Source: Actinomycetota bacterium
GTDB lineage: Bacteria; Actinomycetota; Actinomycetes; Mycobacteriales; HKI-0501
Assembly (NCBI GenBank): GCA_030840805.1
Contig: JAVEDU010000075.1
Span: forward strand, 1-64,000
DNA: 64,000 bases
Reading direction: 5' to 3'
A model generated the notes under the pieces. The model saw only the letters and a program-made list of their open reading frames with translations, had not been told where the DNA came from and did no database searches. A program made the position numbers and the translations under genes. This document shows, piece by piece, positions 49,441-64,000 of the stretch. The first letter of the stretch is position 1. Every line of letters starts with the position of its first letter.

Positions 49441-50224
49441 CCGCCACCCCCATCTGCTCCAGCGCCCGACCGACGAAGACCGCCGTGAGGTGCCGCTTGT
49501 AGTCCTCGTGTCCGTTCAGGTCCTCGGTGATGTCGACCCGCTCGGCGATGGCCGTGGGGTCCACGTCGCCGGTGCCCGGGAAGGTGAACAGCTCGGGCCG
49601 CTCCCCCACCGCGCCGACCACGACGCGACACCCGTCGCCCGTGGCCACGACCGCCACCGTGACGGTGGGGTGCTCGGCGGGCGCGAACCGCACGTACGCC
49701 GACGGCCCGGACCGCGCCGGTACGCGGATCGCCTCGAGCAGCTCCTCGTCGGCACGGACGGTGGTGAACGCGCCCTCGACGAAGTCCTCGATCGGCACGC
49801 TCCGCGCGCCGTCCGCGCTCCGGAGGTCCACCGACGCGTCGAGGGCCAGCAGCGCGGTGAGGATGTCGGACCGGGGCTCGGCGAAGCAGACGTTCCCCGC
49901 GAGCGTGCCGGTCGCCCGGACCCGGACGTTCCCGAGTAGGCCTGCCCCGGCGGCGAGGATCGCCGCGTGCGTCCGCACGGCGTCCGACGCGGCCGCCTCG
50001 CGGTGCGTCACGCGGGCGCCGAGGCGGATCTCGCCGTGCGCCGCCGTGATGCCCACGAGCTCCGGCACCCTCTTGAGGTCGACGAGGGTCTCCGGACTCG
50101 CGAGGCCCAGCCGCATCACCGCGAGCAGCTCGGTGCCCCCGCAGTAGGGTGTTCCTCCGGTGGCGACCAGGTCGACCGCCGCGGCGAGGGACACCGGCCG
50201 GCGCAGCTCGAAGGGGGGCAGCAC
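49433..50224 (-). CDS. Molybdenum hydroxylase, FAD subunit
   Basis: A 263-aa CoxM-like FAD-binding subunit. The first FAD motif is ATGGTPYCGGTELLAVMRLG, the second is GLLGNVRVRATGTLAGNVCFAEPRSDI. The C-terminal domain follows to 263. The GTG start has a GGGGG box. First gene of the hydroxylase unit, with a promoter and a CTGTATGCAG site about 130 bp upstream. Confidence 0.92.
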   Translation of the reverse strand: MLPPFELRRPVSLAAAVDLVATGGTPYCGGTELLAVMRLGLASPETLVDLKRVPELVGITAAHGEIRLGARVTHREAAASDAVRTHAAILAAGAGLLGNVRVRATGTLAGNVCFAEPRSDILTALLALDASVDLRSADGARSVPIEDFVEGAFTTVRADEELLEAIRVPARSGPSAYVRFAPAEHPTVTVAVVATGDGCRVVVGAVGERPELFTFPGTGDVDPTAIAERVDITEDLNGHEDYKRHLTAVFVGRALEQMGVADA

Positions 50225-50335
50225 CGCTACCCCCGCCCGTGCGGACGTACCGCGGGCAGCCGGGAGGCCGCGCGGGCGAGTTCACGTTCCTGGGTGACGT
50301 GCACAGCACTCCTCCGAGGATGTATACGTACGGAT

Positions 50336-50365
50336 ACGCTAGTGGGCTTCTGTATGCAGCGTCAA
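50336..50365 (-). promoter_or_regulatory. Promoter of the molybdenum hydroxylase array with embedded operator
   Basis: Minus-strand TTGACG (50365-50360) and TAGCGT (50341-50336), 18 bp apart. CTGTATGCAG (50350-50359) fills part of the spacer, so binding there would repress. A further GTATAC-type half site lies at 50322-50327, downstream of the start. Confidence 0.6.
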
Positions 50366-50378
50366 TGGCGCTGCGTGA

Positions 50379-51863
50379 CTAGCCCTTTACTGTCCGACCG
50401 GCGCTGGCACCGGCGATCCGGCCGAAGACGGCGCCGTTGGTCAGCCCGCTGCCGCCGGGGTAGTTGAAGTAGAAGATCCCGCCGACCAGCTCCCCGCAGG
50501 CGTAGAGCCCGGGGATCGCGACCCCGTCGGTGGAGACGACCTCGGCGTCGGGCGTGATCCGCAGCCCACCGAACGTGAACGTGATGCCGCAGGTGACGGC
50601 GTACGCCTCGTACGGTGGCGCGTCGAGGGTGTTGGCCCAGTTGTGCTTGTCGATCGCGAGACCCTCGGTGCGGCGGCCGTCCTTGACGTTCGGGTCGAAC
50701 GGCACGTCTGTCCGGATCGCCTTGTTGTACTCGTCGACCGTCCGGAGGAACGCCTCGGCGTCGACGCCCTCCATCTTCGCCGCGAGCTCCTCGAGCGTGT
50801 CCGCGGTGACCTTGGTGACCTCGCGGATCCGGTATTCGTCGCGCTGCAGGTGCGTGACCTTCTGGTCGAACACCTGCCACGCGAACTGGCCGGGCTGGGA
50901 CAGGATCACGTGGCCGTACTTCGCGTACGTGTAGTTCCGGAAGTCCGCACCCTCGTCGACGAACCGCTCGCCCCGCGCGTTCACCATGATCGAGAAGGGG
51001 TAGCTGTGCTTCTGGAAGCCGTCGCCGACGGCGAGGTCGCCGTACGTCGGCGCGTTGAGCTCCCAGCCCACCGCGTGTGCGCCGGACCAGTGGCCCCAGG
51101 ACATCGCGCCGATGTCGAGCGCCATCCGGATCCCGTCGCCCATGTTGAACCGGGAGCCGCGGACCTTCGCGAGATCCCAGCCGGGGCCGAGGTACCGCGT
51201 GCGCCACTCGGCGTTCGCCTCGAAGCCCCCGGACGCGAGGACGACGGCACCGGCCCGGACCTGGCGGGTGCCCCCCTCGTGGCGGACCTCGACGCCCACC
51301 ACGCGCTCCTCTTCGGTGAGGAGGGAGAGGGCGCGCGCACCGTAGGCGATGTCGATGCCGGCCCCGCCGGCCGCCTTCACCAGCGAGTCGACCAGGCCGG
51401 GACCGCCGCCGACCGTCTCCAGCGTCAGGCCGCCCCAGAACGTGAACCGCCCGTCCACCTTGAACGCCTGGCGCCCGTAGATGGGGATGAAGCGCACGCC
51501 CTTGCCGCGCATCCACCGGAGTGTCTCGAAGCTCTGCTTGACCAGGATCTCGGCGAGATCGGGGTCGGTGCGGTGCTCGGTCACCCGGGCCAGGTCGCCG
51601 AGGAACTCCTGCTCGGTGTACGACCCGAAGTCCGTCTGCGCGACCTGCTCCGGCGAGAGGTCCGGGGACAGCTCGAGGATGTCTTCGACCCCGCGGTAGG
51701 CAAACCGCATCGCACCGGCGGTGAAGGTGGTGTTCCCTCCCCGCTCTTCCTGGGGCGCGCACTCGAGGACGAGCACGGACGCGCCGGTCTCCCCCGCGGC
51801 GAGCGCCGCACACAGTGCGGCGTTGCCCGCACCCACGACGACGACGTCGTATGACGACTCCAT
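50379..51863 (-). CDS. FAD-dependent dehydrogenase/reductase (TcuA-like)
   Basis: Fumarate-reductase/3-ketosteroid-dehydrogenase superfamily flavoprotein, 494 aa, closest in style to tricarballylate dehydrogenase TcuA. FAD motif VVVVGAGNAALCAALAAGE, then CAPQEERGGNTTFTAG, a central substrate domain about 130-340, and the C-terminal PGLYACGELVGGIFYFNYPGGSGL. ATG at 51863 follows AAGGAGG. Such proteins add or remove hydrogen next to a carbonyl or carboxyl. Upstream of a molybdenum hydroxylase and cyclic amidohydrolase it might reduce a pyridone-like ring; that is inference. Confidence 0.87.
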   Translation of the reverse strand: MESSYDVVVVGAGNAALCAALAAGETGASVLVLECAPQEERGGNTTFTAGAMRFAYRGVEDILELSPDLSPEQVAQTDFGSYTEQEFLGDLARVTEHRTDPDLAEILVKQSFETLRWMRGKGVRFIPIYGRQAFKVDGRFTFWGGLTLETVGGGPGLVDSLVKAAGGAGIDIAYGARALSLLTEEERVVGVEVRHEGGTRQVRAGAVVLASGGFEANAEWRTRYLGPGWDLAKVRGSRFNMGDGIRMALDIGAMSWGHWSGAHAVGWELNAPTYGDLAVGDGFQKHSYPFSIMVNARGERFVDEGADFRNYTYAKYGHVILSQPGQFAWQVFDQKVTHLQRDEYRIREVTKVTADTLEELAAKMEGVDAEAFLRTVDEYNKAIRTDVPFDPNVKDGRRTEGLAIDKHNWANTLDAPPYEAYAVTCGITFTFGGLRITPDAEVVSTDGVAIPGLYACGELVGGIFYFNYPGGSGLTNGAVFGRIAGASAGRTVKG

Positions 51864-51886
51864 CGATCCTCCTTGGCCGGTCGATC

Positions 51887-51916
51887 TTGTATATGTCTGT
51901 ATACAGCGACATACAG
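51887..51916. promoter_or_regulatory. Operator cluster with perfect CTGTATACAG
   Basis: CTGTATACAG (51897-51906) is a perfect 10-bp palindrome. It is flanked by TTGTATATGT and GACATACAG, which extend the dyad to about 30 bp. It lies 24-53 bp upstream of the TcuA-like ATG, at the place of a repressor site. Confidence 0.65.
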
Positions 51917-51993
51917 CGCCGTGCACAGTCGGGTCACGGTGATGTGGTGCACACCCGCGTGGCGGCCCGGCCGCCGAGGCGGCCGGGCGGCCC

Positions 51994-52746
51994 TCAGGCC
52001 TCGTGCCGGGTCTTCGCGAACCGCTGGATCAGCAGCTGCAGCAGGGCTACGACGCACAGGAGCACCACGATGATGGCGAAGACGCGCGGCACCTGGAGGG
52101 TCTGCGACGCGTACGCGAGCTCGTACCCGAGCCCCCGTTCCGCCGCCAGCATCTCGGCCAGGATGACGGTGATGATGTTGAGAGCCGCGCCGATGCGGAC
52201 ACCGGCCAGCACCATCGGGAGCGCGGCGCGCACCTTCACCAGCCGGTCCGTCTGTCCCGGTGACGCCCCGAACGCCCGCGCGACGCGAAGGTAACGCTCG
52301 TCGACGGCCTGGAAGCCGCGCAGCGAGTTGAAGGCGATCGGGAAGAAGCCCGACACCACGCCGTACAGGATCTTCGACCAGATCCCGACGCCGAACCACA
52401 GGATGAACAGCGGGTAGAACAGCACCAGCGGCGCCATGTACCCCCACGCGAGCAGCGGCTCGCTCACCTTCGCCCGGAGCGGCGTACGACTGCAGGCGAA
52501 CCCGACCAGGATGCCCGCCACGATCGAGCCGAGGAAGGCGATCCCGATCTCGAACAGGGTGACGCCGACGTGCTCCCAGGTCTTGCTCTCCTGGACGAAC
52601 CCCACCAGTGCCCGCCACACGAGCTCGAGACGCGGCAGCAGGACCGGCGAGACCTCGCCGGGGCCGGTGGCGTAGACCCACGACCCGAAGAGGGCGACAC
52701 CGAGGGCGGCGCGCAGCGCCCACACCTTGGTCAGCTCGGCCCGCAC
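51994..52746 (-). CDS. ABC transporter permease (SsuC/TauC-like)
   Basis: A 250-aa BPD-family permease with about six membrane segments. The EAA-like loop is ERYLRVARAFGASPGQTDRLVKV. The N-terminus is LTKVWALRAALGVALFGSWVY. GTG start shares one base with the ATPase stop (TAGTG). Second of two permeases in this importer. Confidence 0.9.
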   Translation of the reverse strand: MRAELTKVWALRAALGVALFGSWVYATGPGEVSPVLLPRLELVWRALVGFVQESKTWEHVGVTLFEIGIAFLGSIVAGILVGFACSRTPLRAKVSEPLLAWGYMAPLVLFYPLFILWFGVGIWSKILYGVVSGFFPIAFNSLRGFQAVDERYLRVARAFGASPGQTDRLVKVRAALPMVLAGVRIGAALNIITVILAEMLAAERGLGYELAYASQTLQVPRVFAIIVVLLCVVALLQLLIQRFAKTRHEA

Positions 52747-53540
52747 TACCCTGCGCTCCGCACGGCGACCGGCTCCTCGGCGGGGCTGACCTCGAGCAGG
52801 CTGAACAACTTCGCCCGCAGCGCGTCGAACCGCCTGTCGGTCATGAACTCGGGGCGCCGCGGCCTCGGCTCAGGCACGACCAGCTCCTCGATGATCCGGC
52901 CGGGGCCTTTCCCCATGACCAGCACGCGGTCGGCCCAGAAGATGGCCTCGTCGAGGCTGTGCGTCACCATCACCACGGTCTTGCCGGTGTCGGTGAGGAC
53001 GCGGGACATCTCGATGCCGAGGCGCCGGCGGGACTGCTCGTCGAGCGCGCCGAACGGCTCGTCCATCAGCAGGATCTCCGGCTCCATGGCCAGCGCGCGC
53101 GAGATGGCCACGCGCTGCTGCATGCCGCCGGACAGCTCGGCCGGGTAGGAGTCCGCGACATGCCCGAGCCCCACGAGTTCGAGTTCCTTCAGGGCGCGGG
53201 CCCGCCGCTCCGCCTTCGGCATCCCGGCGAACCGTAGGCCGATCGCCGCGTTGTCCACGACGGACTTCCACGGGAACAGGCTGTAGTCCTGGAAGATGAA
53301 CGCGGCCCGTTCCGGGCGCGGGTCCCGGATCTCCTCACCGCCCACCGCGACGGAGCCGGCGGACGGCCGGAGCATCCCGCCCATGCAGTGCAGCACCGTC
53401 GACTTGCCGCAACCGCTGGGGCCGATCAGGGACACGAACTCCCCGACCTGGACGGTGATGTTGACGTCGGCCACGGCGAGGACCTTGCGGCCGCTCGCGG
53501 TCTCGTAGGTGACGGACAGGTCCTTGACAGTGAGGGTCAC
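52746..53540 (-). CDS. ABC transporter ATP-binding protein (SsuB/TauB-like)
   Basis: A 264-aa ATPase. Walker A GPSGCGKSTVL, Q-loop FQDYSLFPWKSV, signature LSGGMQQRVAISRAL, Walker B LLMDEPFGALDEQ and VTHSLDEA are all present. GTG at 53540 has GAGGAG upstream. Members of this clade import sulfonates, nitrate, pyrimidine precursors or aromatic acids. Confidence 0.93.
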   Translation of the reverse strand: MTLTVKDLSVTYETASGRKVLAVADVNITVQVGEFVSLIGPSGCGKSTVLHCMGGMLRPSAGSVAVGGEEIRDPRPERAAFIFQDYSLFPWKSVVDNAAIGLRFAGMPKAERRARALKELELVGLGHVADSYPAELSGGMQQRVAISRALAMEPEILLMDEPFGALDEQSRRRLGIEMSRVLTDTGKTVVMVTHSLDEAIFWADRVLVMGKGPGRIIEELVVPEPRPRRPEFMTDRRFDALRAKLFSLLEVSPAEEPVAVRSAG

Positions 53541-53572
53541 AGCGTCTCTCCTCCTCGGGACGTCGAGCCGGT

Positions 53573-54397
53573 CTAGCCGGCCAGGCCGGCGGTGACAGCG
53601 GTGCCACGGCTGCCACGCCACCGGTTGAGCCTGTCCTCGACCCGGGACCAGAGGGCCCCGGCGAGGATGGCGGCGAGCGTGACCACGAGCACGACGGCGA
53701 GCACGTAGTCGGTCTGCAGGGTGGTGGAGTACGTGCGGATCAGGTCGCCGATGCCCCCTCGGGACGCCCACAGCTGGGCGATCATCACGCCGAGGAACGC
53801 ATGCTTGACCCCGTACCAGAGCGCCGCGAACAGGCCCGGCAACGCGGCCGGCCCGATCACGTCGACGTACTTGTGGAAGCGGCTCGCGCGGAAGGCCCGG
53901 GCGACCCGGAGGTGGCGGTCCTCCACCAGCTCGATCCCACCCAGGACGTTCACGACGACGTAGAAGAACGCCTCGAACGCACCGAAGGCGGCTGCCGAGG
54001 TTCCGCTGATGCCGAAGACCAGGACGAAGATCGGTATGAAGATCGACTTCGGCGTGGACAGGATGAACAGCAGCGGGGCGAGGAATGCCTTCCGGAGGAC
54101 CTTCGAGCCGCCGAGCACGGCGGCCACCACGATGCCGGCGGACGTGCCGACGATGAAGGCCGTGACGATCGAGATGCCGGTCGAGCTGAACGCCTCGCGG
54201 GCGATCGGGTCCCCGGCGAGCGAGCCGACGGCCTTGACGACCCCGATCGGTCCGGTGAGGAACAGTGGGTCGACCAGGTCGAGCCGGACCACCAGGTCCC
54301 AGACGACGAGGAACCCGACGATGATGAGTGTGCGGATGAGGGTCGCGCGGGCGGCCAGCCGTTCTGCGGCCGACCGCCCGCCGCGGTCGAGGATCAT
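53573..54397 (-). CDS. ABC transporter permease (SsuC/TauC-like)
   Basis: A 274-aa permease with about six segments starting LIRTLIIVGFLVVWDLVV. EAA loop DRHLRVARAFRASRFHKYVDVI. The ATG at 54397 lies 5 bp after the binding-protein stop. Together with the permease at 51994 it probably forms a heterodimeric channel. Confidence 0.9.
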   Translation of the reverse strand: MILDRGGRSAAERLAARATLIRTLIIVGFLVVWDLVVRLDLVDPLFLTGPIGVVKAVGSLAGDPIAREAFSSTGISIVTAFIVGTSAGIVVAAVLGGSKVLRKAFLAPLLFILSTPKSIFIPIFVLVFGISGTSAAAFGAFEAFFYVVVNVLGGIELVEDRHLRVARAFRASRFHKYVDVIGPAALPGLFAALWYGVKHAFLGVMIAQLWASRGGIGDLIRTYSTTLQTDYVLAVVLVVTLAAILAGALWSRVEDRLNRWRGSRGTAVTAGLAG

Positions 54398-54402
54398 CGA
54401 GC

Positions 54403-55392
54403 TCAGCCGATGTCCTGCCAGTACCGGTACATCGACGATGTGTCGAAGTCGCCGGCATCCTTGACCGTGACCCTCACCGCGTCGGCGAGGCCCTTCAGAT
54501 TCTCCTCGGGGATCTTCCCGTCCGGCGAGAGCAGCGGCACGATGGCGTCCACGGAGCGCTTCGCGGTATCGGGATCGTTCTTCCAGTCCTCGACCATGAT
54601 GTCGACGGCCTTGGACGGGTCGTCCTGGAGGATCTTCACGGCCTTGAAGTAGCCCTCGAAGAACGCCTTCACCGCCTCGGGGCGCTCCTTCGCCACGTCG
54701 TCCCGCACGGAGATGGCCTCGAACACGTTGGGACCGACCATCTCGGCCACGCTGCCCATCACGACGCCGTAGCCGTCGTGCTCGGCGGTGAGCGCCGGCT
54801 CGAGGCTCCAGACGAACGCCTGGATGGTGCCGCGCTGGAGACCGGCCAGCAGCGCCTTGAGACTGCCCATCTGGACGATCTTGTAGTCGCTGTCCTTCCA
54901 GCCCAGGGACTCCGCCATCTTGAGCGTCGCGAAGTGGCCGGCCGAGCCGAAGCCGCTGATGCCGATCGACTTGCCCTTGAGGTCCGCGGGCTTCGTCGCC
55001 CCGGAGGTCTTGCCGGCGACGATGTACTGCTCCCACGGCTGGAGGATGCCCGCGGCGACCTTCGCCTTGACGCCGGAGATGATGTCGGCGGCGGCCTTGT
55101 TCCCGGCCTGGACGCTGATCTCGGCCTCGCCGCTCGCCATCGCGGGACCGACCGTCGAGGAGGTCGCGGCGAACGTCTCGACCTTCAGCCCGGTGCCCTC
55201 CCAGACCCCCAGCGAGTTGCCGGCCTCCGCGGCGATGAAGGGCAGCGACTGGCCCTCGCTCAGCACGACCCGCAGGGTGCCGAGGCCACTGTCCGCCTCG
55301 GCGTCGCCCCCGCCACCACACCCGGCGAGTGCCAGGACAGCGCACGTCAGTCCTGCGGAGAGTCGAGCTCTCGGTGTTCCGAAACGTGCCAT
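54403..55392 (-). CDS. ABC transporter substrate-binding lipoprotein (SsuA/THI5-like)
   Basis: Binding protein of 329 aa with lipobox LALAGC (Cys about residue 25). VVLSEGQSLPFIAAEAGNSLGVWEGTGLKVE at the start of the mature part, then DLKGKSIGISGFGSAGHF and LKALLAGLQRGTIQAFV are typical of the NMT1/SsuA fold for small organic ligands. ATG at 55392 has AAGGAG at 9 nt; a GTG six bases upstream is less well placed. First gene of the importer, divergent from nicF, so the importer probably brings in the pyridine-pathway substrate. Confidence 0.9.
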   Translation of the reverse strand: MARFGTPRARLSAGLTCAVLALAGCGGGGDAEADSGLGTLRVVLSEGQSLPFIAAEAGNSLGVWEGTGLKVETFAATSSTVGPAMASGEAEISVQAGNKAAADIISGVKAKVAAGILQPWEQYIVAGKTSGATKPADLKGKSIGISGFGSAGHFATLKMAESLGWKDSDYKIVQMGSLKALLAGLQRGTIQAFVWSLEPALTAEHDGYGVVMGSVAEMVGPNVFEAISVRDDVAKERPEAVKAFFEGYFKAVKILQDDPSKAVDIMVEDWKNDPDTAKRSVDAIVPLLSPDGKIPEENLKGLADAVRVTVKDAGDFDTSSMYRYWQDIG

Positions 55393-55456
55393 GTACACGG
55401 GCTCCTTCGTGAAGTACGTCGCTCCTCGGAGCTACGTGCCGACCGCCTAGGCGCTT

Positions 55457-55520: not shown

Positions 55521-56204
55521 ATGCACTGGGATACATACCTGTCTGAGCAGGACCGGCTCGTCATGGCGCAGGCCGGATACGGGTCACGAGGGCGACGGGG
55601 CGTGCGTCCCGCACTCCTGGTCATCGACGTGACGTACGCCTTTTGCGGGGACCGACCGGAGCCCGTGCTCGAGTCCATCAAGCGCTGGCGGAACTCCAGC
55701 GGCGAGGCCGCCTGGGCGGCCGTCGCGCACGTCCGGGAACTGCTCGACGGCGCGCGAGCCGCCGGCGCGCCGGTCATCTACACCCGCGGGCTGGGCGCCA
55801 CCGTCCCGTCGGGACGGTGGGCGGACAAGAACACGCGGGCGCGCGAGGACCACGACGACCATCACGAGATCCTGCGGGAGATCGCCCCGCGCGACGGCGA
55901 ACCGGTGCTGCGCAAGGCCAAACCGAGCGGCTTCTTCGGGACGCCGCTGGCGAGCCTGCTGGTGGACGCGGGTGCCGACTCGCTGATCGTCTGCGGCGGG
56001 ACGACGAGCGGCTGCGTCAGGGCGACCGTGGTGGACGGCTTCTCGTACAACTATCCGGTCGCCGTCGCCGCGGACGCGTGCTTCGACCGGGTGGAGGCGT
56101 CACACTGGATCGGCCTGTTCGACATGGAGATGAAGTACGCCGACGTCCTGCCGACCGCCGACGTCCTCACCCATCTCCGCGGCGAACCGGGCGCACCCGC
56201 CTGA
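55521..56204 (+). CDS. nicF: Maleamate amidohydrolase (isochorismatase-like cysteine hydrolase)
   Basis: Converts maleamate to maleate plus ammonia, the penultimate step of the maleamate pyridine pathway. The 227-aa protein has the catalytic triad of the family: Asp36 in LLVIDVTYAF, Lys132 in VLRKAKPSGFFGT and Cys165 in GGTTSGCVRATVVDG. The SGCVRAxVVDxxSxN and KYADV stretches match NicF rather than plain isochorismatases. N-carbamoylsarcosine amidase is the main alternative, but the neighbouring nicX, nicD and nicE make maleamate more likely. ATG at 55521 follows GGGAGG. Divergent from the importer under a shared operator. Confidence 0.85.
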   Translation: MHWDTYLSEQDRLVMAQAGYGSRGRRGVRPALLVIDVTYAFCGDRPEPVLESIKRWRNSSGEAAWAAVAHVRELLDGARAAGAPVIYTRGLGATVPSGRWADKNTRAREDHDDHHEILREIAPRDGEPVLRKAKPSGFFGTPLASLLVDAGADSLIVCGGTTSGCVRATVVDGFSYNYPVAVAADACFDRVEASHWIGLFDMEMKYADVLPTADVLTHLRGEPGAPA

Positions 56205-56228
56205 CGGCGCCCGGCCGGACCCGGTCCT

Positions 56229-56281
56229 CGACCACGGGCCGTCGGGACGCACCTCGGGTGCGACCCGACGGCCGTGGGTCG
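56229..56281. terminator. Long bidirectional hairpin between converging nicF and the Mo subunit gene
   Basis: Two arms of about 17 bp (CGACCACGGGCCGTCGGG and its near complement) enclose an inner CGCACC/GGTGCG stem, giving one long hairpin. It sits between the stops of two converging genes and probably ends both transcripts. Confidence 0.65.
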
Positions 56282-56331
56282 CCCCCGGCGCGGGGGCGTA
56301 TCGCCCGGGGCGCCACGCGATCCGCCGCGCC

Positions 56332-58704
56332 TCACCGCCCGCGCATCGCCTGCCAGACCACCTCGGGCGTCAGCGGAAGGGTGTCGAGCTCGACGCCGAA
56401 GTCCACCAGCGCGTCGCAGAGCGCGTTCGCGATCGCCGCCGCCGGTGGGATCGTCCCCACCTCCCCCACGCCGCGGATCCCGAACGGGGTGACGGGCGAC
56501 GGCACCTCGGTGTGCAGCAGCTCGATCGGCGGGACGTCCGGCGCCGCCGGCGCGAAGTAGTCCATCATCGTGCCGTTCACGAGCTGGCCGGTGTCCGCGT
56601 CGTACCGCAGCTCCTCGCCGAGCGCCGCGCCCAGCCCCTGCACGAGCGCGCCGCGCACCTGGCCCTCGACGACCATCGGGTTCACCGCGGTCCCGCAGTC
56701 GTGCACCAGCACGAACCGCTCGACATCGAACTCCCCGGTGTCCGGATCGACCGAGACGAGCGCCGCCGCGGTGCCGAAGGAGTACGCCGCGTCGGTCGGC
56801 TCGAAATGCGCCGTCGCCTCCAGCCCCGGCTCCTCCTCCGGCGGGATCCCCTGGCCGAGGATCGCCGCCGTGAACACGTCCGCCAGCGGAACCGACACCG
56901 CGGGATCGTCCCGCCGCCGGACCACCGTGCCGGCCACCTCGACGTCCTCCGCGCCACACTCCAGGATCCACGCGGCGAGCCGCAGGGTCTTGGCCTGCAG
57001 CGCCTCGCTCGCCGCCGTCAGCGCCCCGGCGGCGGCGATCATCGTCCGGGAGGCGAAGGCACCGGTGTTCAGCGGTGAGGCGCCGGTGTCGCCGGCGTGC
57101 ACCTTCACCGCGTCGTACGCGATGCCGAAGACCTCGCCGACGACCTGGGCGAAGGCCGTCTCGCTGCTCTGCCCCATCGTCGACACGCCGGTGTAGACGT
57201 CGATGCCCCCGGACCGGTTCGCCCGCAGGGTCACGCTCTCGTGGGCACCGAACTGGGACCCGCGGCGGGCCAGGAACCGCGAGCTCGCGTACCCCGTCCG
57301 CTCCACGAAGGACGACAGCCCGATCCCGACGAGGCGACCGTCGGCGCGGGGGACGCGCGGTGCGGCGCGGTGGGCGTCGTAGTCGATCGCCTCGGCGGCC
57401 ATCCGCAGACAGAGCTCGTAGTCGCCGCTGTCGTACACCGCGCCGGCCGGGTTCCGCCACGGCAGGTCCTCCGGTCGCAGCATGTTCTTCGCCCGCAGCT
57501 CCAGTGGGTCGATACCGAGCCGCCGGGCAAGCCGGTCGATGAGACGCTCACAGGCGAAGTTCACCTCGGGTTGACCGTACCCCCGGTACGCCCCGATGGG
57601 TGTCTTGTTGGTGAGGACGACCCGGCGCTCGACGTACCCGTCGTCCACCTTGTACGGACCGGTGAAGACCACACTGGACAGCTGGGCCGACCCGAAGGAC
57701 GAGTTCCACCCCCCGAGGTCCGTGGCGTACGTGTCGGTGATCGCGACGATCTGCCCGTCGGACCGGGCGGCGATGCGGTAGTCGTGGGTCGCCTCCCGGG
57801 CGTGCGTGGTGGCCCGGAAGTGCTCCATCCGGTCCTCGACCCACTTCACCGGGCGGCGCAGCGCCATGGCGTGGAGACACGCGAGGACGTCTTCGGGATA
57901 GATCCCGAGCTTCAGCCCGAAGCCACCGCCGACATCGGAGGCGACGGCCCGGATGTCGCTCTCCGGCAGGGACAGCACCTCGGCGAGCTGCTTGCGGACG
58001 AGGTGCGGCACCTGGGTGGAACTGTGGACGGTGAGCTCACGCGCGCCCGGCCGCCACTCCGCCACGATCCCCCGTGTCTCCATCGGGAGACCGGTCACCC
58101 GGTTGATCCGGAACCGGCCCTCGACGACGACGTCCGCCGCCGCGACCCGGGCCTCCGGGTCACCGGTGCCCTCCGGGTTGGACACCATGAGGTTGCGCTC
58201 CACCAGGCCCGGGTGGACCTGCGGAGCGCCGGGCTCGAGCGCCGCCATCGCGTCGCTGACGTGCGGGATCGGCTCGTAGTCGATCTCGATGAGCTCCAGC
58301 GCGTCCTCGGCGACGGCGCGGCTCGTCGCCACCACGCTGACCACCGGCTCGCCCTCGTAGCGCACGACGTCCCCGGCGAGGGCGTAGTACGGCAGCGCCG
58401 GCGCGCCGGGCACCGGACGCAACACGGTCAGCGGCCGGGTCGCGCTCCGCACGTCGGCCCCGACGAGGATGTGGCGCACGCCCTCCAGCTCGGCCGCGAG
58501 ACCGAGGTCGATGCCCAGGATCCGGGCGTGCGGGTACGGAGAGCGGCCGACGGCCATCTCCAGGGCGTGCGCGGGCTCGATGTCGTCGGTGAAGCGCCCG
58601 TCTCCCCGCAGGAGCCGGTCGTCCTCCTTGCGGGCGGCGCTCGTGCCGAGGAGCGAGGTCCGGCCCTCGGCGGGGGCGGACCGCTGTTCCAGGGTCCCGG
58701 TCAT
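56332..58704 (-). CDS. Molybdenum hydroxylase, large subunit (pyridine operon)
   Basis: CoxL/NdhL-like molybdopterin subunit, 790 aa. Begins LLGTSAARKEDDRLLRGDGRFTDD; motifs include ASDVGGGFGLKLGIYPEDV, AYRGYGQPEVNFACE (not the AYRCSFR of true CO dehydrogenases), TGVSTMGQSSETAFAQV and the catalytic Glu in FGIRGVGEVGTIPPAAAI. It pairs with the adjacent iron-sulphur subunit and the FAD subunit at the right edge. In this operon the expected reaction is hydroxylation of a pyridine ring carbon next to nitrogen. ATGA overlap with its upstream gene. Confidence 0.93.
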   Translation of the reverse strand: MTGTLEQRSAPAEGRTSLLGTSAARKEDDRLLRGDGRFTDDIEPAHALEMAVGRSPYPHARILGIDLGLAAELEGVRHILVGADVRSATRPLTVLRPVPGAPALPYYALAGDVVRYEGEPVVSVVATSRAVAEDALELIEIDYEPIPHVSDAMAALEPGAPQVHPGLVERNLMVSNPEGTGDPEARVAAADVVVEGRFRINRVTGLPMETRGIVAEWRPGARELTVHSSTQVPHLVRKQLAEVLSLPESDIRAVASDVGGGFGLKLGIYPEDVLACLHAMALRRPVKWVEDRMEHFRATTHAREATHDYRIAARSDGQIVAITDTYATDLGGWNSSFGSAQLSSVVFTGPYKVDDGYVERRVVLTNKTPIGAYRGYGQPEVNFACERLIDRLARRLGIDPLELRAKNMLRPEDLPWRNPAGAVYDSGDYELCLRMAAEAIDYDAHRAAPRVPRADGRLVGIGLSSFVERTGYASSRFLARRGSQFGAHESVTLRANRSGGIDVYTGVSTMGQSSETAFAQVVGEVFGIAYDAVKVHAGDTGASPLNTGAFASRTMIAAAGALTAASEALQAKTLRLAAWILECGAEDVEVAGTVVRRRDDPAVSVPLADVFTAAILGQGIPPEEEPGLEATAHFEPTDAAYSFGTAAALVSVDPDTGEFDVERFVLVHDCGTAVNPMVVEGQVRGALVQGLGAALGEELRYDADTGQLVNGTMMDYFAPAAPDVPPIELLHTEVPSPVTPFGIRGVGEVGTIPPAAAIANALCDALVDFGVELDTLPLTPEVVWQAMRGR

Positions 58705-59201
58705 CGGGCGGCCCGGGCCGCGTCGTCCGCCGCCGTCGCGTCGAGGTGGCGGGCGATGGCCTTGACGATGGGGTCGTAGCCGGTGCAGCGGCAGAGCACG
58801 CCGGCGATCTCCTCGCGGATCTCCGGCTCGGACAGCCGTTCCCCGCGGTCGGTCAGCGCCGTCACGGTCATCAGGAAGCCCGGCGTGCAGAACCCGCACT
58901 GCAGCGCGTGCGCGTCCTTGAACGCCTGCTGCAACGGGTGGAGCCGGTCGCCGGTCGCCAGCGACTCGACGGTCCGGACCGTGCACCCGTCCAGCTGGGC
59001 GGCGAACAACAGGCAGGACTTCACCGCATCGCCGTCGACGAGCACGGTGCACATGCCGCAGACGCCCTGCTCGCAACCGACATGGGTGCCCGTGAGCCCC
59101 ACTCGATGGCGCAGGAAGTCCGCGGCATGCAGCCGGGGTGGCACGCGTGCGGTGACGGTCTCACCGTTCACGGTCACCGTGACGTCGACGTCGTCGGTCA
59201 T
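58701..59201 (-). CDS. Molybdenum hydroxylase, [2Fe-2S] subunit (pyridine operon)
   Basis: A 166-aa CoxS-like subunit. First cluster in VGCEQGVCGMCTVLVDG (about 43-60), second in CGFCTPG and LCRCTGYDPIV (about 105-150); all eight Cys present. ATG at 59201 has GAGGAG upstream; 33 bp separate it from nicX. Confidence 0.95.
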   Translation of the reverse strand: MTDDVDVTVTVNGETVTARVPPRLHAADFLRHRVGLTGTHVGCEQGVCGMCTVLVDGDAVKSCLLFAAQLDGCTVRTVESLATGDRLHPLQQAFKDAHALQCGFCTPGFLMTVTALTDRGERLSEPEIREEIAGVLCRCTGYDPIVKAIARHLDATAADDAARAAR

Positions 59202-59234
59202 CTGTTCAAAGCTCCTCGGGTCCGGTGCGCTCGT

Positions 59235-60269
59235 TCAGCCGAGACGGCTGGACGGCCACATCTCCTTGACGACGACGTCGCCGTCCACCACGACCGGCTC
59301 GTCGTCGAGGAAGAGGCTGGCGCCGCGCATCGGGATGTCGAAGTGGCATGGGGTGTTGTTCGGTCCACCGAGCTCGTTGTTCGGGCCGATCGAGAACATC
59401 ACGTTGCCGAAGAACGACCGCAGCTCCATCCCCATCCCGCCCGGGAACTGGTGGAGGCCGTGCCACTTCGCCCGCTCGTCCAGCCCCCAGCCGACGTGCG
59501 ACATGCCGTACCCGCGGGGGTCCTCGAACGACTTGATGTACGAGGAGAGGAAGTCCGCGTCGAGCTCACCACGGATGTCGGTGACGAAGCCCTTCTCGAT
59601 CGTGAGGGTGACCGGGCTCTGCACGTACGTGTTGAAGGGCAGCAGGACATCGCCGGGCGCGAGCACGATCTGACCGTCCACACCGTCGTCGGCACCGCCG
59701 GTGAAGACGAACGCCGCCGGCCAGTGGTCCCACCGGCCGGGCTGGTCGGTGTAGCCGTACTCGCTCATCGTCGGGTAGACCCCGAGCTGGTACGTGACAT
59801 CGGTGCCGTGCGGGCTGGTGATCCGCATCGACTTCGCCTTCGCCAGCAGCTCGGCGCCGACCTCCACGCGCTCCCGGAGCTCCCTGGTCGGGAACAGCCG
59901 GGCGAGCAGCGGCGCGGGCTCGACCGCGGTGAGGATGCGGGTCCCCGCGCCCTGGACCGCGAACTGCTCGTCGCTGAAGAGCAGGAAGACGAGGTCCACC
60001 ACCATGTCGGCGCGCTTCAGCGCCTCGACCGCCTCGGCGTTACCCGCCAGCTCGGACGCGCCGACCACCCAGGCGCCGGACGAGGGCTGCGGCTCCTGGA
60101 GTCGCATGTGGTAGGTCTTCGCGCCCAGGCTGCGGGCGGCATACAGGAACGCATCCGCGTAGTCGAGACGCTCGTTGCCCTGGGAGAGCACGACGACTGT
60201 CTCGCCCTCGTGCACGGCGCTCAGTTCGAGCTGGCGCCGGCACATCTCGTTGAGCATGCTCTGGTCCAT
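59235..60269 (-). CDS. nicX: 2,5-dihydroxypyridine 5,6-dioxygenase
   Basis: Non-haem Fe(II) extradiol-type dioxygenase opening 2,5-dihydroxypyridine to N-formylmaleamate. The 344-aa length matches NicX (about 350). The iron ligands known for the family correspond to His258 in YGMSHVGWGL and His309/Asp311 in NTPCHFDIPM. Other family blocks are SEYGYTDQPGRWDHWP, LPFNTYVQSPVTLTIEKGF and FFGNVMFSIGPNNELGG. Aminopeptidase-like annotations given to this fold are less likely given nicD and nicE next door. ATG at 60269, 8 bp after nicD. Confidence 0.92.
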   Translation of the reverse strand: MDQSMLNEMCRRQLELSAVHEGETVVVLSQGNERLDYADAFLYAARSLGAKTYHMRLQEPQPSSGAWVVGASELAGNAEAVEALKRADMVVDLVFLLFSDEQFAVQGAGTRILTAVEPAPLLARLFPTRELRERVEVGAELLAKAKSMRITSPHGTDVTYQLGVYPTMSEYGYTDQPGRWDHWPAAFVFTGGADDGVDGQIVLAPGDVLLPFNTYVQSPVTLTIEKGFVTDIRGELDADFLSSYIKSFEDPRGYGMSHVGWGLDERAKWHGLHQFPGGMGMELRSFFGNVMFSIGPNNELGGPNNTPCHFDIPMRGASLFLDDEPVVVDGDVVVKEMWPSSRLG

Positions 60270-60277
60270 GGTGGCTC

Positions 60278-61114
60278 CTAACGGTCGGAGGGGTCGGCCG
60301 GATCGGGCAGGAGAACGGGGCGCACGGCGTCGAGGAAGCCGGGCAGGTTGTCCCACGGCACCATGTGGCCGGCGCCGGGAACGGTGACGATGTCGAGGGC
60401 CGGGTTGGCCCGCCGCAGGTCCTCGGCGGCCGACTCGGGCACGACGGGGCTGTCGCCGCCGCGGATCAGCACGGCGGGCTGCCGCAACTCGCGCCAGTAG
60501 CCGAGGACGTCCTCGGACTCGAAGCCCGCGTGGGTCTCCAGTACCGCGGTCTCGTCGCAGGTCGCCAGCACCTCGGCGCGCAACTGGAGCTCGCGGTCCG
60601 GCCACTTCGGATAGAAGCGCCGGACCTCCGCGGCCGTCGTGCCGCGCTGCGCCTCGTGCAGCTGCTCGAGGAACGCCTCGCGGCTCGTCGGGTAGGGACC
60701 TCGATCGGGACCGGAGACCGGCGGATCGACGAGCAGGAGCGGACCGTGGTCGTCGGGCGCGTGCAGCACGGCGTACGCGAGGGCGATCCGTGCCCCGAGC
60801 GAGTGGCCCAGGATCGTCGGCCGCCGCAGGCCGAGCGCGCCGACGAGGCCCGCGACGTCGGCGGCATAGTCGGTCAGCCGGTACCCGCCGGACGGAGCGC
60901 GGTCGGTCCCTCCCCGGCCGCGGAGGTCCGGCACGTGTACCCGGTAGCCGAGCTCGGCGAGCAGGACGGCGAGGAAGTCGGCGGTCGGCGCCGGGCTGGT
61001 GATGCCGGGCAGGATCAGCAGCTCCGGCCGGCCGATCTCGCCGTAACGGAGAACGTGGTGGCGCAGCCCGTTCGCCTCGACGTCGATGCCCCGGCCCGCG
61101 ATCTCGACGGTCAC
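60278..61114 (-). CDS. nicD: N-formylmaleamate deformylase
   Basis: Alpha/beta hydrolase removing formate from N-formylmaleamate to give maleamate. The 278-aa protein has the catalytic Ser105 in ILGHSLGAR, Asp130 in LLVDPPVSGP and His250 in PGAGHMVPWDNLPGF. The NicD-specific stretches ANGLRHHVLRYG, ILPGITSPA and VDPPVSGPDRGPYPS are clear. GTG at 61114 overlaps the nicE stop as GTGA. It follows in pathway order between nicX and nicE. Confidence 0.92.
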   Translation of the reverse strand: MTVEIAGRGIDVEANGLRHHVLRYGEIGRPELLILPGITSPAPTADFLAVLLAELGYRVHVPDLRGRGGTDRAPSGGYRLTDYAADVAGLVGALGLRRPTILGHSLGARIALAYAVLHAPDDHGPLLLVDPPVSGPDRGPYPTSREAFLEQLHEAQRGTTAAEVRRFYPKWPDRELQLRAEVLATCDETAVLETHAGFESEDVLGYWRELRQPAVLIRGGDSPVVPESAAEDLRRANPALDIVTVPGAGHMVPWDNLPGFLDAVRPVLLPDPADPSDR

Positions 61115-61881
61115 GAGACGACCCGGACGGCCGTGGACAGCGCGGCGCCGGCGTCGCGAACCTGCGGCTCCAGTCCGAGGGCCAGCAGGATCTCCCGCGT
61201 GGTCGCGGTGGCGGCGGTGACCACCGGCAGCCCGAGAGCGTCCTCAACCGCCTGCACCGCGGGCAGCGACGGCATCTGGACGCAGGCCGACAGGACGATG
61301 CCGTCCACCCCGGTGGTGTCGAGGCGGGCGACGTGGTCCCGAAGTTTCGCCGGGTCGAGCCGGCCCACCGCGCAGTTGTCCGTCACCGAGAGACTCACAC
61401 TGTCCGCGACGCTGATGCCGGCGTCCTCGAGGTAGCCGACCACCAGCCCGGTCAGGGCGGGCAGGTACGGGGCGACGACGGCGACCCGCCGCAGCCCGAG
61501 CTCGGTCAGGGTTCGCACCAGCGCACCGGCGCTGCTCGTCATCGGCGCGGTCGAGGACCGGCCGGCGGCGAGCACCGCGCGCAGGCGGTCCTCGACCTCG
61601 ACGTGCGCGCCGGGGCCCTGCGCCATCACGGCGACCAGGCACGCGTAGGCGACGACGTCCACGTCCGCGTCCCCGAGCTCCGCGGCGCACCGGTCGCTGT
61701 CGGCGACCATCCGGGCGAGCGACTCGGCGTCGACGGTGTGGAGCCGAGCGCGGCTGCTGTGGAACGTCACCGACGTCCCGTACTGCTCGCCGTGCCGCCG
61801 CAGCAGCTCGGGGATCTCGGTTTCCATCGTCGTGTTCGAGCTCGGGACGATCAGCCCGACCCGGCGGGTCCTGTTGCTCAT
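61111..61881 (-). CDS. nicE: Maleate cis-trans isomerase
   Basis: Asp/Glu racemase superfamily enzyme converting maleate to fumarate. The 256-aa protein has IVPSSNTTMETEIPELL at the N-terminus, Cys81 in VVAYACLVAVMA and Cys200 in LSACVQMPSLPAVQ, the two catalytic cysteines of the family. Last step of the pathway, feeding the TCA cycle. ATG at 61881 makes an ATGA overlap with the HD-domain gene. Confidence 0.93.
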   Translation of the reverse strand: MSNRTRRVGLIVPSSNTTMETEIPELLRRHGEQYGTSVTFHSSRARLHTVDAESLARMVADSDRCAAELGDADVDVVAYACLVAVMAQGPGAHVEVEDRLRAVLAAGRSSTAPMTSSAGALVRTLTELGLRRVAVVAPYLPALTGLVVGYLEDAGISVADSVSLSVTDNCAVGRLDPAKLRDHVARLDTTGVDGIVLSACVQMPSLPAVQAVEDALGLPVVTAATATTREILLALGLEPQVRDAGAALSTAVRVVS

Positions 61882-62486
61882 GCGCACTCTTCTTCCTCGT
61901 CTACCTTCGACAGAACCTCCAGGGCCGACGCCAGCAGGTGTGCGGCCGGCTCCCGAGCTGCCGGGATGCGGATGCGGTCGGCCATGTATCGCAGCTTCTC
62001 GACGGCCTTGTCGTGGCTGCACCGTCCGGCGCAGACCCACGACCGCGTGGCGTCGGCGAGGGTCTCCAGATAGGACAGCGAGTCGGCCGCCTGGACCTCG
62101 TCGGCGCCGCGGAGGCCGCCCAGCTCGTGCAGCGCGACGAGGCGCCGCACCTCGTACTCCTCGACGCCCGACTCGCCCCGGGTCTGCAGCCACACGCCGA
62201 CGGACTCCGCGGAACGCATCGAGTGCGGGAACAGGTAGTACGGGTCGTCCCAGGCGGTGTTCGCCATGTCGAGCGCCGGGCTGCCCGGGAACATGCGCTC
62301 GATGTCGTGCACCATGGCCGCGAGCCGCATCTCCACGGTCGCGTCCGGCTCGAGGTACACGAGCCAGTCCCGGGCACGCAGCAGGTGCCAGGCCTGGGAG
62401 TACGGGCGGATCCACTCTGCCGCGGCACGCTCGACGTGGGTGTCGAGCTCGATCCCGGGCGCGAGGAACGGCACCGTGGCGCTCAT
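61878..62486 (-). CDS. HD-domain protein in the pyridine operon
   Basis: A 202-aa protein with an HD-type metal phosphohydrolase core: RLAAMVHDIERMFPG (His-Asp pair about residue 59), FPHSMRSAESVGVWLQ, LVALHELGGLRGA and QAADSLSYLETLA (later Asp). No role is known for an HD protein in pyridine breakdown. Translationally coupled on both sides (ATGA with coxG-like gene, ATGA with nicE). It could be a non-phosphatase metal enzyme of the pathway, or act on a nucleotide or cofactor. Confidence 0.8.
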   Translation of the reverse strand: MSATVPFLAPGIELDTHVERAAAEWIRPYSQAWHLLRARDWLVYLEPDATVEMRLAAMVHDIERMFPGSPALDMANTAWDDPYYLFPHSMRSAESVGVWLQTRGESGVEEYEVRRLVALHELGGLRGADEVQAADSLSYLETLADATRSWVCAGRCSHDKAVEKLRYMADRIRIPAAREPAAHLLASALEVLSKVDEEEECA

Positions 62487-63130
62487 CGCCGGTCCCCGTG
62501 GCCGCGCCGGGAACGGCTCAGCGCGACCAGGCTGAGCACCACCGACACCGCCGAGAGGCCGGCGGCGATCCGCGGCCAGGGGTCCGCGACGACCTCGTCC
62601 CGGGGTTCCGGTGCGGAGGTGCCGACCGCCGCCGACCGGGCCGCGATGGGGCGGCCCGGCCCGGCCGGGGCGTCGCCGAGCTTCCCGCCGTTGAGCATCG
62701 TGTCGAGGTTGCGCGCGAACTCGGCGGTGACCTTGCCGGCCTGCCGCGACACGACCTTCTGGCCGACGCTGCCGAGCGCACCCGCCAGCGTGACGTCGCC
62801 CTCCACGCTGACGACCGTCTGCCCGTCCACCGGCACGAGCTGGACGGTCGTGCTGGCGCGGACGTTGCCGAGCGCTCCCCGGACCGTACGGCCGGTCGCG
62901 GTGAAGCGGATCAGCTCGCCGGCCACGCGCTCGGTGATCTTGACCTTCGCGTCGAAGGTGGCCGACATCGGGCCGAGCCGCTGCGTGGCCCGGACGTGGA
63001 CGTTGTCCGCGTCGACCACGGTGACGTGCTCGACGCCGGGCAGGCATTCGGCGACCCGCTCGGGCTGCTCGAAGAAGGTCCACACGTCGTCCACCGGGCG
63101 GGCGACCTGGAACTCTTCACGAAGCTTCAT
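62483..63130 (-). CDS. CoxG-like SRPBCC protein with C-terminal membrane anchor
   Basis: A 215-aa protein. SRPBCC domain about 1-145 (KLREEFQVARPVDDVWTFFE, ERVAECLPGVEHV, VEGDVTLAGALGSVGQKVV), Pro/Ala linker, and a single hydrophobic segment about 188-207 (IAAGLSAVSVVLSLVAL) before a basic tail. CoxG anchors CO dehydrogenase to the membrane; here it probably recruits the pyridine-operon hydroxylase. ATGA overlaps on both sides. Confidence 0.88.
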   Translation of the reverse strand: MKLREEFQVARPVDDVWTFFEQPERVAECLPGVEHVTVVDADNVHVRATQRLGPMSATFDAKVKITERVAGELIRFTATGRTVRGALGNVRASTTVQLVPVDGQTVVSVEGDVTLAGALGSVGQKVVSRQAGKVTAEFARNLDTMLNGGKLGDAPAGPGRPIAARSAAVGTSAPEPRDEVVADPWPRIAAGLSAVSVVLSLVALSRSRRGHGDRR

Positions 63131-64000
63131 GACTGTTCTCCTCGGAGCGGGGCATCGCGGAGCTCGGTGAGCACTCTCCGCGCGTAGACGGGAAGGAGAT
63201 GGCGCCGGTACTCGGCGGAGGCACGGATGTCCGACGGCGGGTCGGCCACGTCGACCGCCAGTTCGGCGGCCTCCCGGATCACCGCGTCGGACAGGTCCGA
63301 GCCGTTGAGCAGCTCGGCGGCGGCCTCCGCCAGCACCGGCGTGTCGGCGATCCCGCCGAGACCGACCCGCACGTCGCGCCACCGCCCGCCGGCGTCCCGG
63401 TCCCCCACCGCCAGCACGCTGAGCACGGCGAAGTCGTTGTGCCGCCGGGTCACCTCGGTGAACGCGAAATGCGCCGGTGCGGGCGGGAACACGACCTCGG
63501 TGAGCAGCTCCTCGAGCTCCAGCACGGTGGCGTACGAGCCCTCGTACAGCTCGGCCACCGGGATCGCGCGGGCGCCGGCCGGCCCGACGACACGCACGGT
63601 CGCACCGAGCACGAGACACGCCAGCGGGAACTCACCGGTCGGGTCGGCCTGTACCAGGCTCCCGCCGACCGTCCCGCGGTTGCGGACCTGCCGGTCGCCG
63701 ATGTGCCGCACCAGTTCCGCCAGCACCGGCAGGCGCTCCGCGACGAGCGGGAGCCGCTCGAGGGTGGTGTACCGGACGAGCGCACCGAGCACGGTGGACG
63801 TGCCCTCCGCGCGGACCTCGGACAGCTCCGGGATCCGATTGATGTCGACAAGGGCCAGCGGGCGCCAGAGCCGCATGTTCATCATCGGTACGAGGCTCTG
63901 CCCGCCCGCGAGGACCCGCGCGGCACCGCCGTAGTCGTCGAGGAAGGCGACCGCCTCGTCGACCGAGGTCGGCCGGTGGTACGTGAAGTGCGCGGCCTTC
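63127..64000 (-). CDS. Molybdenum hydroxylase, FAD subunit (5' end cut by the window)
   Basis: CoxM-like FAD subunit. The frame continues past the internal ATG at 63885 to the window edge: AAHFTYHRPTSVDEAV, then FAD motif VLAGGQSLVPMMNMRL, second motif RNRGTVGGSLVQADPTGEFPL and a C-terminal domain. By comparison the protein starts with M-K-A-A, so only about two bases of the gene are missing at the edge. Completes the LSM hydroxylase with 56332 and 58701; separated from them by coxG-like, HD, nicE, nicD and nicX genes. Confidence 0.93.
   Translation of the reverse strand, partial: KAAHFTYHRPTSVDEAVAFLDDYGGAARVLAGGQSLVPMMNMRLWRPLALVDINRIPELSEVRAEGTSTVLGALVRYTTLERLPLVAERLPVLAELVRHIGDRQVRNRGTVGGSLVQADPTGEFPLACLVLGATVRVVGPAGARAIPVAELYEGSYATVLELEELLTEVVFPPAPAHFAFTEVTRRHNDFAVLSVLAVGDRDAGGRWRDVRVGLGGIADTPVLAEAAAELLNGSDLSDAVIREAAELAVDVADPPSDIRASAEYRRHLLPVYARRVLTELRDAPLRGEQS

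Follow-up and report, generated by a model that had tools for sequence, protein, structure and literature searches.

A putative 3-hydroxypyridine operon combining a predicted aryl kinase, a molybdenum hydroxylase and an HD-superfamily protein in an actinomycetotal genome

How does an operon that encodes the enzymes of the maleamate pathway obtain the 2,5-dihydroxypyridine that feeds it, if it lacks NicC, the flavin hydroxylase of the Pseudomonas nicotinate system? This question is raised by an operon at the end of the stretch studied here, namely, the first 64,000 bases (positions 1–64000, hereafter the window) of the 134,355-base contig JAVEDU010000075.1 in the Actinomycetota assembly GCA_030840805.1; the contig was read on to position 100000, and all coordinates are contig positions. 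We propose that this is probably an hpd-type operon for the catabolism of 3-hydroxypyridine (3-HP), in which the substrate would be phosphorylated, hydroxylated and dephosphorylated before it enters the nic steps. We also lean, with somewhat less assurance, towards a molybdenum hydroxylase of the xanthine dehydrogenase (XDH) family that works only on a phosphate ester, with a dikinase tagging the hydroxypyridine and a dedicated HD phosphatase, an arrangement that would constitute a fourth branch of aryl-phosphate catabolism. Gene content, motifs and gene association are direct observations; all upper-pathway reactions, and their order, we infer.

The operon comprises 11 genes on the minus strand, from 67638 down to 56332, and the window edge cuts through it. 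Thus, the series of minus-strand genes recognized in the original prediction, which was made from the window, is real but truncated, and continues to 67638. Genes overlap by 4 bases at 8 of the 10 junctions, and the gaps between NicD and NicX and between NicX and the iron–sulphur (Fe-S) subunit measure 8 and 33 bases, respectively; given this spacing, the operon presumably forms one transcript. It is a catabolic operon of an already reported kind (in Ensifer), and is fuller than the window shows. The 11 genes, in the direction of transcription, are followed below by three genes that lie beside them.

66922–67638, minus strand: NicF (Pfam Isochorismatase); outside the window
65078–66925, minus strand: swivel/His kinase component, HpdH-like, 615 residues (PEP-utilizers domain at the C-terminal end); outside the window
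63999–65081, minus strand: ATP-grasp kinase component, HpdI-like, 360 residues (Pfam PPDK_N); only its last bases in the window
63127–64002, minus strand: CoxM-type FAD subunit (Pfam FAD_binding_5, CO_deh_flav_C); extends two bases past the window
62483–63130, minus strand: CoxG/SRPBCC component (Pfam COXG, 68.9 bits)
61878–62486, minus strand: HD-superfamily metal-dependent phosphohydrolase, putative pyridyl-phosphate phosphatase (32-sequence family, invariant motif, structure model)
61111–61881, minus strand: NicE, maleate cis-trans isomerase (match to 4fq7)
60278–61114, minus strand: NicD, N-formylmaleamate deformylase, an alpha/beta hydrolase (match to 4l0c)
59235–60269, minus strand: NicX, 2,5-dihydroxypyridine 5,6-dioxygenase (match to 7cn3)
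58701–59201, minus strand: CoxS-type 2x[2Fe-2S] subunit (Pfam Fer2_2, Fer2)
56332–58704, minus strand: CoxL-type molybdopterin large subunit, HpdA-like (Pfam MoCoBD_1/MoCoBD_2/Ald_Xan_dh_C)
67816–69222, plus strand: amt, ammonium transporter (Pfam Ammonium_transp); beside the operon
69372–70058, plus strand: GntR/FCD regulator (GntR/FCD family match); beside the operon
55521–56204, plus strand: second isochorismatase-type hydrolase (Pfam Isochorismatase); opposite strand, not in the operon

The assignment to the maleamate pathway holds, as NicX, NicD, NicF and NicE all strongly match solved structures. NicX, which has a single match in this genome, aligns with Pseudomonas putida NicX (7cn3) over 4–337 with 314 bits, whereas NicD scores 181 bits against the deformylase 4l0c, NicE 214 bits against the maleate cis-trans isomerase 4fq7, and the NicF candidate at 66922–67638 244 bits against the isochorismatase-family hydrolase 4l07; we take the latter three structures to be maleamate-pathway enzymes of P. 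putida S16. The claim that nicX, nicD and nicE retain their catalytic residues was largely borne out: Ser105 and His250 are present in all 28 aligned NicD sequences, and Cys81 and Cys200 in all 19 of NicE. An excerpt of the literature on NicX names H105, E177, H189, H265, S302, H318 and D320 (PMC7910607). Equivalents of the last six, including the iron ligands, are kept in the window NicX (E177 is Gln in 1 of the 20 sequences aligned from the loci compared below), but His105, a lid residue in P. putida NicX, is replaced by Phe in the window protein and in 19 of those 20. The original nicF, at 55521–56204, has to be abandoned, being on the opposite strand and reaching only 103 bits against 4l07, compared with 244 bits for the gene past the edge. 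In the two Planosporangium loci (P. mesophilum and P. flavigriseum) with the same operon order (L010, L011; about 1.1 kb read past coxL), the sole match of the 55521–56204 protein occupies the NicF place. On the strength of these homologies, NicX, NicD, NicF and NicE would take 2,5-dihydroxypyridine via N-formylmaleamate, maleamate and maleate to fumarate.

The same four steps occur in the Pseudomonas nic cluster, and the operon could conceivably degrade nicotinate or 6-hydroxynicotinate in the Pseudomonas manner if a gene for NicC lay at some other place; its superfamily (FAD_binding_3, PF01494) has 27 matches in the genome. We consider this very improbable. None of these matches lies in the operon or next to it (55461 to 70058), so that the absence of a NicC-type gene noted from the window extends to the completed operon; nor does a second molybdenum-cofactor (MoCo) subunit lie beside it past 64000, where a nicC and nicAB pair had been envisaged as the finding that would overturn the prediction. 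Two of the 27 matches were compared with known oxygenases. The monooxygenase at 2752–3900, which had been suggested as a possible source of the second hydroxylation, is far nearer to 2-methyl-3-hydroxypyridine-5-carboxylate oxygenase (MHPCO; 189 bits) than to NicC (75 bits) and was rejected, as was the FAD_binding_3 protein at 84582–86153, past the edge, which resembles polyketide and rifampicin oxygenases; a further weak match past the edge is C23:95410–95940 (40.6 bits). The CxxCH motif is absent from all six recovered MoCo proteins, the operon CoxL included, in the stretch read (L007 and the end of L005 lie outside its coverage). Finally, nicotinate would leave an aryl-hydroxyl kinase without a role.

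The hydroxylase itself points to a different substrate. Its FAD, Fe-S and molybdenum (Mo) subunits, already seen in the original prediction, are confirmed as XDH/CODH-type (CODH, carbon monoxide dehydrogenase), but the three-subunit composition has to be amended: given the separate CoxG/SRPBCC gene, the enzyme is a four-component one (FAD, CoxG, Fe-S, Mo). CoxG ends in a hydrophobic tail, a likely membrane anchor judging from its sequence, and two MoaA-type matches show that molybdenum-cofactor synthesis is present in the genome. Among solved structures, the large subunit is closest to quinoline 2-oxidoreductase (1t3q, 528 bits), an enzyme of N-heterocycle alpha-hydroxylation, by a small margin over CODH 8uem (518 bits), followed by CutL (443 bits); the active-site glutamate, Glu748, is kept in all 25 aligned hpd CoxL sequences. 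No NCBIfam model reaches its cut-off on this subunit, the best being CODH and glyceraldehyde dehydrogenase models, both far below (580.5 of 950 bits for the best CODH model). A CO dehydrogenase identity was rejected. The active-site loop of aerobic CO dehydrogenase reads AYRCSFR; here, it is AYRGYGQP, its Gly and Gln being shared by all 25 hpd CoxL sequences, and a paralogue elsewhere in this genome (L003) has the CODH-type loop VAYRCSFR.

XDH-family hydroxylases attack the carbon adjacent to the ring nitrogen. As NicX takes 2,5-dihydroxypyridine, the precursor should then already be oxygenated at C3, that is, it should be 3-HP, and no NicC would be needed because this oxygen is already in place. 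An aryl-hydroxyl kinase fits such a substrate. The excerpted report on Agrobacterium DW-1 describes 3-HP degradation via 2,5-dihydroxypyridine and N-formylmaleamic, maleamic, maleic and fumaric acids (PMC6525221). In Ensifer adhaerens HP1, the 3-HP dehydrogenase HpdA is “four-component” by the title of the study (Wang et al. 2020, AEM 86:e01313-20, cited in PMC12016537), and a CoxG homologue of this dehydrogenase is assigned a proposed anchoring role in a passage of PMC11962113. Because the operon fits the HpdA cluster of HP1, the 3-HP conversion guessed at in the original prediction appears to be largely right; the hydroxylase probably does lead from 3-HP to 2,5-dihydroxypyridine, but “directly” is doubtful given the kinase and HD genes.

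Could the kinase, hydroxylase and HD set act on some other hydroxylated N-heterocycle, the product of which drains into 2,5-dihydroxypyridine? A hint in this direction comes from the alphaproteobacterial metagenome-assembled genomes among the loci compared below: L037, L038 and L041 carry a polysaccharide-deacetylase-type gene beside the kinase/hydroxylase core, and in L038 (433–9813) the core also adjoins a di-iron phenol/alkene hydroxylase, so that upstream substrates may vary by lineage, an upstream substrate such as pyridine being possible. Nevertheless, if hydroxylation next to the nitrogen is to give 2,5-dihydroxypyridine, the simplest precursor is 3-HP, and 3-HP is the substrate named for the Ensifer HpdA in the title cited in PMC12016537. 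We therefore judge another heterocycle to be improbable for this operon.

The operon also carries a pair of kinase genes. The PPDK_N domain is confined to 63999–65081, so that the ATP-grasp and swivel/substrate components are separate proteins, the layout of the aryl dikinase HpeHI. For such two-component enzymes, an excerpt of PMC12167813 gives the catalytic motif T/SxxGGxxxH and a Met at the regulatory site. The HpdH of this operon has SDVGGIMAH, with His564, and Met at the regulatory site; the His is found in 85 of the 86 aligned rows, the remaining row being a gap. By this resemblance, the pair would phosphorylate an aromatic hydroxyl. HpdH has a single match in this genome, and its closest named relatives, at 89 and 86% identity, belong to the actinobacterial genus Planosporangium; the proteobacterial loci are at 67–73%. 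Four plasmid-borne comparators, L089, L090, L091 and L092, are 49.1, 46.7, 47.2 and 45.3% identical to HpdH and 40.1, 39.4, 41.3 and 40.6% identical to HpdI, respectively. L090 is a pps (phenol) cluster, with a phenylphosphate carboxylase; L091 is cre-like by gene content (P450, 2Fe-2S protein, reductase and HD protein); L092 is hpe-like, with biotin carboxylase and a HAD hydrolase; and the unannotated L089 has matches to both the HAD and the biotin carboxylase of L092. These four were the plasmid records read; none of the 291 matching records reaches 60% identity (best, 50.3%), and an hpd-like cluster on plasmids was rejected.

The remaining upper-pathway gene encodes a protein of an HD family in which 32 aligned members share invariant H34, H60-D61, E63, R64, H88, R91, S92, H120, E121, D129, Q132 and D135, among others; of these, H34, H60, D61, H88, H120 and D135 are presumably the metal ligands, by analogy with HD signatures. 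The structure model is confident (mean predicted local distance difference test score, 92.4), and its best Foldseek matches are HD hydrolases, with probability 1.00 but an E-value of 6e-3. In the VIA comparison, HD hydrolases rank top, with Z 13.7, root-mean-square deviation 4.2 and 160 aligned positions for 2pq7, a Z that is moderate for a helical fold; hence, the invariant motif is stronger evidence for the HD fold than the structure match. Taken with gene association, fold and motif suggest a phosphohydrolase, putatively a pyridyl-phosphate phosphatase. The term “phosphohydrolase” is used for CreD in a passage of PMC7764795, and the notion of CreD as an HD protein leans on L091 being cre-like. 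Orthology of the window HD protein with that of L091 was rejected, the two sharing no BLAST similarity and belonging at most to the same superfamily. An HD-first search of the phylum, in which few candidates were scored per genome, recovered the family in 7 of 396 genomes, three strongly (this genome, G322 and G113) and four weakly (65–78 bits). In the three strong cases, kinase, hydroxylase and nic genes lie in the same stretch (about 10 kb from the HD gene in G322); G322 and L044 seem to be one contig, which makes G113 the only new case.

The association of these genes was followed across kinase loci. A search of a species-genome collection with HpdH returned 225 relatives, and the best 79 loci were analysed, with hpd-type CoxL defined at 50% identity or more and nic and amt genes counted at 37% or more. 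Hpd-type CoxL is found in 27 of the 79, and 24 of these 27 also carry the HD gene; the others are L033, in which the contig ends inside coxL, and L045 and L053, both from Acidimicrobiia, with no HD gene within the 21.8 kb read. The HD gene in turn occurs in 31 loci, invariably together with the ATP-grasp, FAD and CoxG genes (31 of 31), and at the 7 HD loci without CoxL the contig ends on that side. Among the 34 loci labelled hpd, NicX is encoded in 25, NicD and NicF in 27 each, and NicE and amt in 18 each. In the HpdH tree (86 rows, built by a quick method, with long branches flagged among the comparators), all 37 rows linked to HD or hpd-type CoxL fall into one 42-row clade (SH-aLRT 100), outside which the four plasmid comparators are placed; the 5 other rows of the clade (L014, L015, L034, L037 and L040) come from contigs of 3.7 to 11.6 kb. 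Counting L054, which was too short for the tree, 40 loci are on the hpd side and 39 outside. Three clusters (L043, L044 and L101) contain two HpdH genes each, with the copies in different subclades in L043 and L044.

The phosphatase-like gene changes with the kinase class. On the hpd side, an L045-type HAD hydrolase is found only in L045 and L053, both of which lack the HD gene, and the cre-like HD in none, whereas the 39 outside loci include 22 with HAD, 6 with cre-like HD (26 with either) and 23 with a phenylphosphate-carboxylase-type gene. As HAD genes are common, this pattern is a contrast, not proof. L045 and L053 combine a kinase of the same clade with CoxL-type hydroxylase genes (two adjacent ones in L045), the HAD hydrolase and a deacetylase-type gene; because NicX has no match in either genome, these two loci may act on another substrate.

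The original prediction includes neither the kinase pair, which lies past the window edge, nor the HD gene inside the window. Given these two, the hydroxylase may use a phosphorylated compound instead of 3-HP directly. By homology, the dikinase (63999–65081 and 65078–66925) would first phosphorylate the ring hydroxyl of 3-HP; the four-component hydroxylase would then hydroxylate the carbon next to the ring nitrogen, C6, a position suggested by chemistry of the quinoline 2-oxidoreductase type; and the HD protein, as its fold, motif and gene association suggest, would strip off the phosphate, freeing 2,5-dihydroxypyridine. Phosphorylation could thereby hide the electron-donating phenolate, keep the substrate from leaving the cell and provide the hydroxylase with a handle. 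The closest working precedent for kinase, conversion and phosphatase in one pathway would be the Hpe pathway, where, according to an excerpt of PMC9618137, the carboxylase HpeCBA accepts its substrate only in phosphorylated form, with a phosphatase acting afterwards. Within CoxL, R96, H278, R297, H488 and R497 are invariant in 25 hpd sequences and non-basic in four paralogues of this genome, which makes these five residues candidates for phosphate contact on sequence grounds; H488, however, aligns with His also in quinoline 2-oxidoreductase, which speaks against this role for it.

The chief competitor of this step order is that the hydroxylase acts on free 3-HP, with the dikinase and HD protein serving another purpose, such as trapping and release of the substrate before hydroxylation, or regulation. 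The HP1 study is said to implicate a PEP-utilising protein and a pyruvate-phosphate dikinase (PPDK) in the activity of HpdA, with no mention of a phosphorylated intermediate, which would favour the free substrate. In the same direction, the title cited in PMC12016537 has HpdA itself catalysing the first step of 3-HP catabolism, and a passage of PMC12167813 calls the reason for phosphorylation in such pathways unclear and suggests trapping. Set against this are the strict requirement of HpeCBA for a phospho-substrate, the type of phosphatase-like gene, which varies from one kinase class to another along with the converting enzyme, and the invariant basic residues of CoxL, H488 being the ambiguous one. 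All considered, we regard hydroxylation of free 3-HP as a serious but rather unlikely alternative to the phosphorylated route.

Several further observations weigh against the phosphorylated 3-HP route. The cores at L029, L038, L039 and L041 are without nic genes in the stretch read. A NicX search of ten genomes did find homologues elsewhere for these four and for L042 (70, 47, 41, 47 and 42% for L029, L038, L039, L041 and L042), whose core loci show no NicX, and also in the L033, L034 and L037 genomes (60, 77 and 47%), but it is uncertain whether homologues at 41–47% are 2,5-dihydroxypyridine dioxygenases. The kinship to the Ensifer HpdA is one of gene anatomy only. For the HD family, Pfam at a loose cut-off of 0.1 gives DUF4202 in 16 of the 32 members and HD in only 9, the window protein reaching only DUF4202, at 0.028; the Foldseek E-values of its model are no better than 6e-3; it shares, as mentioned, no BLAST similarity with the HD protein of L091; and its four weak relatives are without the enzymes of the operon in the 4 to 19.5 kb read around each. 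Also, substrate trapping could be the sole function of the dikinase. The idea of a phosphorylated hydroxypyridine was not found in the open-licence papers searched, and might be in print elsewhere, including the HP1 paper.

Outside the operon, the minus-strand genes at 46692–55398 encode another Mo hydroxylase, of three genes (CoxL2/S2/M2), along with a fumarate-reductase-like flavoprotein and an ABC transporter of the NMT1 type; with the divergent isochorismatase-type gene at 55521–56204, they may make up a heterocycle catabolic cluster of their own. The MHPCO-like flavin monooxygenase (2752–3900, minus strand), which lies about 52 kb away from the operon, is followed by an Amidohydro_3 protein (1166–2740, minus strand), and from its sequence this monooxygenase is possibly a second ring-cleavage enzyme of the 3-hydroxypyridine type.

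If the phosphorylated route is true, it would mean an XDH-family N-heterocycle hydroxylase that acts on a phosphate ester, and it would account for the PPDK-like partner that the Ensifer 3-HP dehydrogenase reportedly has. If the step order holds, the kinase clade and the HD family would provide a gene-level marker for 3-HP catabolism in Actinomycetota and Pseudomonadota, and the 3-HP dehydrogenase would be linked to the expanding set of aryl dikinases, for which an excerpt of PMC12167813 leaves the reason for phosphorylation unclear.

Among known systems, the operon most resembles the HpdA cluster of E. adhaerens HP1, with which it shares the four-component Mo hydroxylase with CoxG, at least as far as titles and excerpts of the HP1 literature describe it. 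What may set the present operon apart is that its nearest named relatives are actinobacterial (Planosporangium) and that it encodes the full NicF-NicE-NicD-NicX lower pathway itself, next to amt and GntR genes. The HP1 cluster reportedly contains genes for a PEP-utilising protein and a pyruvate-phosphate dikinase, counts CoxG among its four components and yields 2,5-dihydroxypyridine; PEP-utilising and PPDK-like genes are present here as well. The HpeHI, CreHI and PpsAB dikinases have the same two-protein layout, the swivel His motif and Met at the regulatory site, at 45–47% (H) and 39–41% (I) identity to members of these clusters; the kinase of this operon, however, belongs to a separate clade, and where those clusters have a carboxylase or P450 it is accompanied by an Mo hydroxylase and a protein of a distinct HD family. 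Quinoline 2-oxidoreductase, the nearest solved relative of the large subunit, has to our knowledge no kinase, phosphatase or CoxG partner. Finally, the P. putida nic cluster, which takes nicotinate to fumarate, has the NicX, NicD, NicF and NicE steps in common with the operon; unlike that cluster, the operon has no NicC and no cytochrome-domain NicAB (there is no CxxCH in its CoxL), and the upper pathway is replaced here by the kinase, the four-component hydroxylase and the HD gene.

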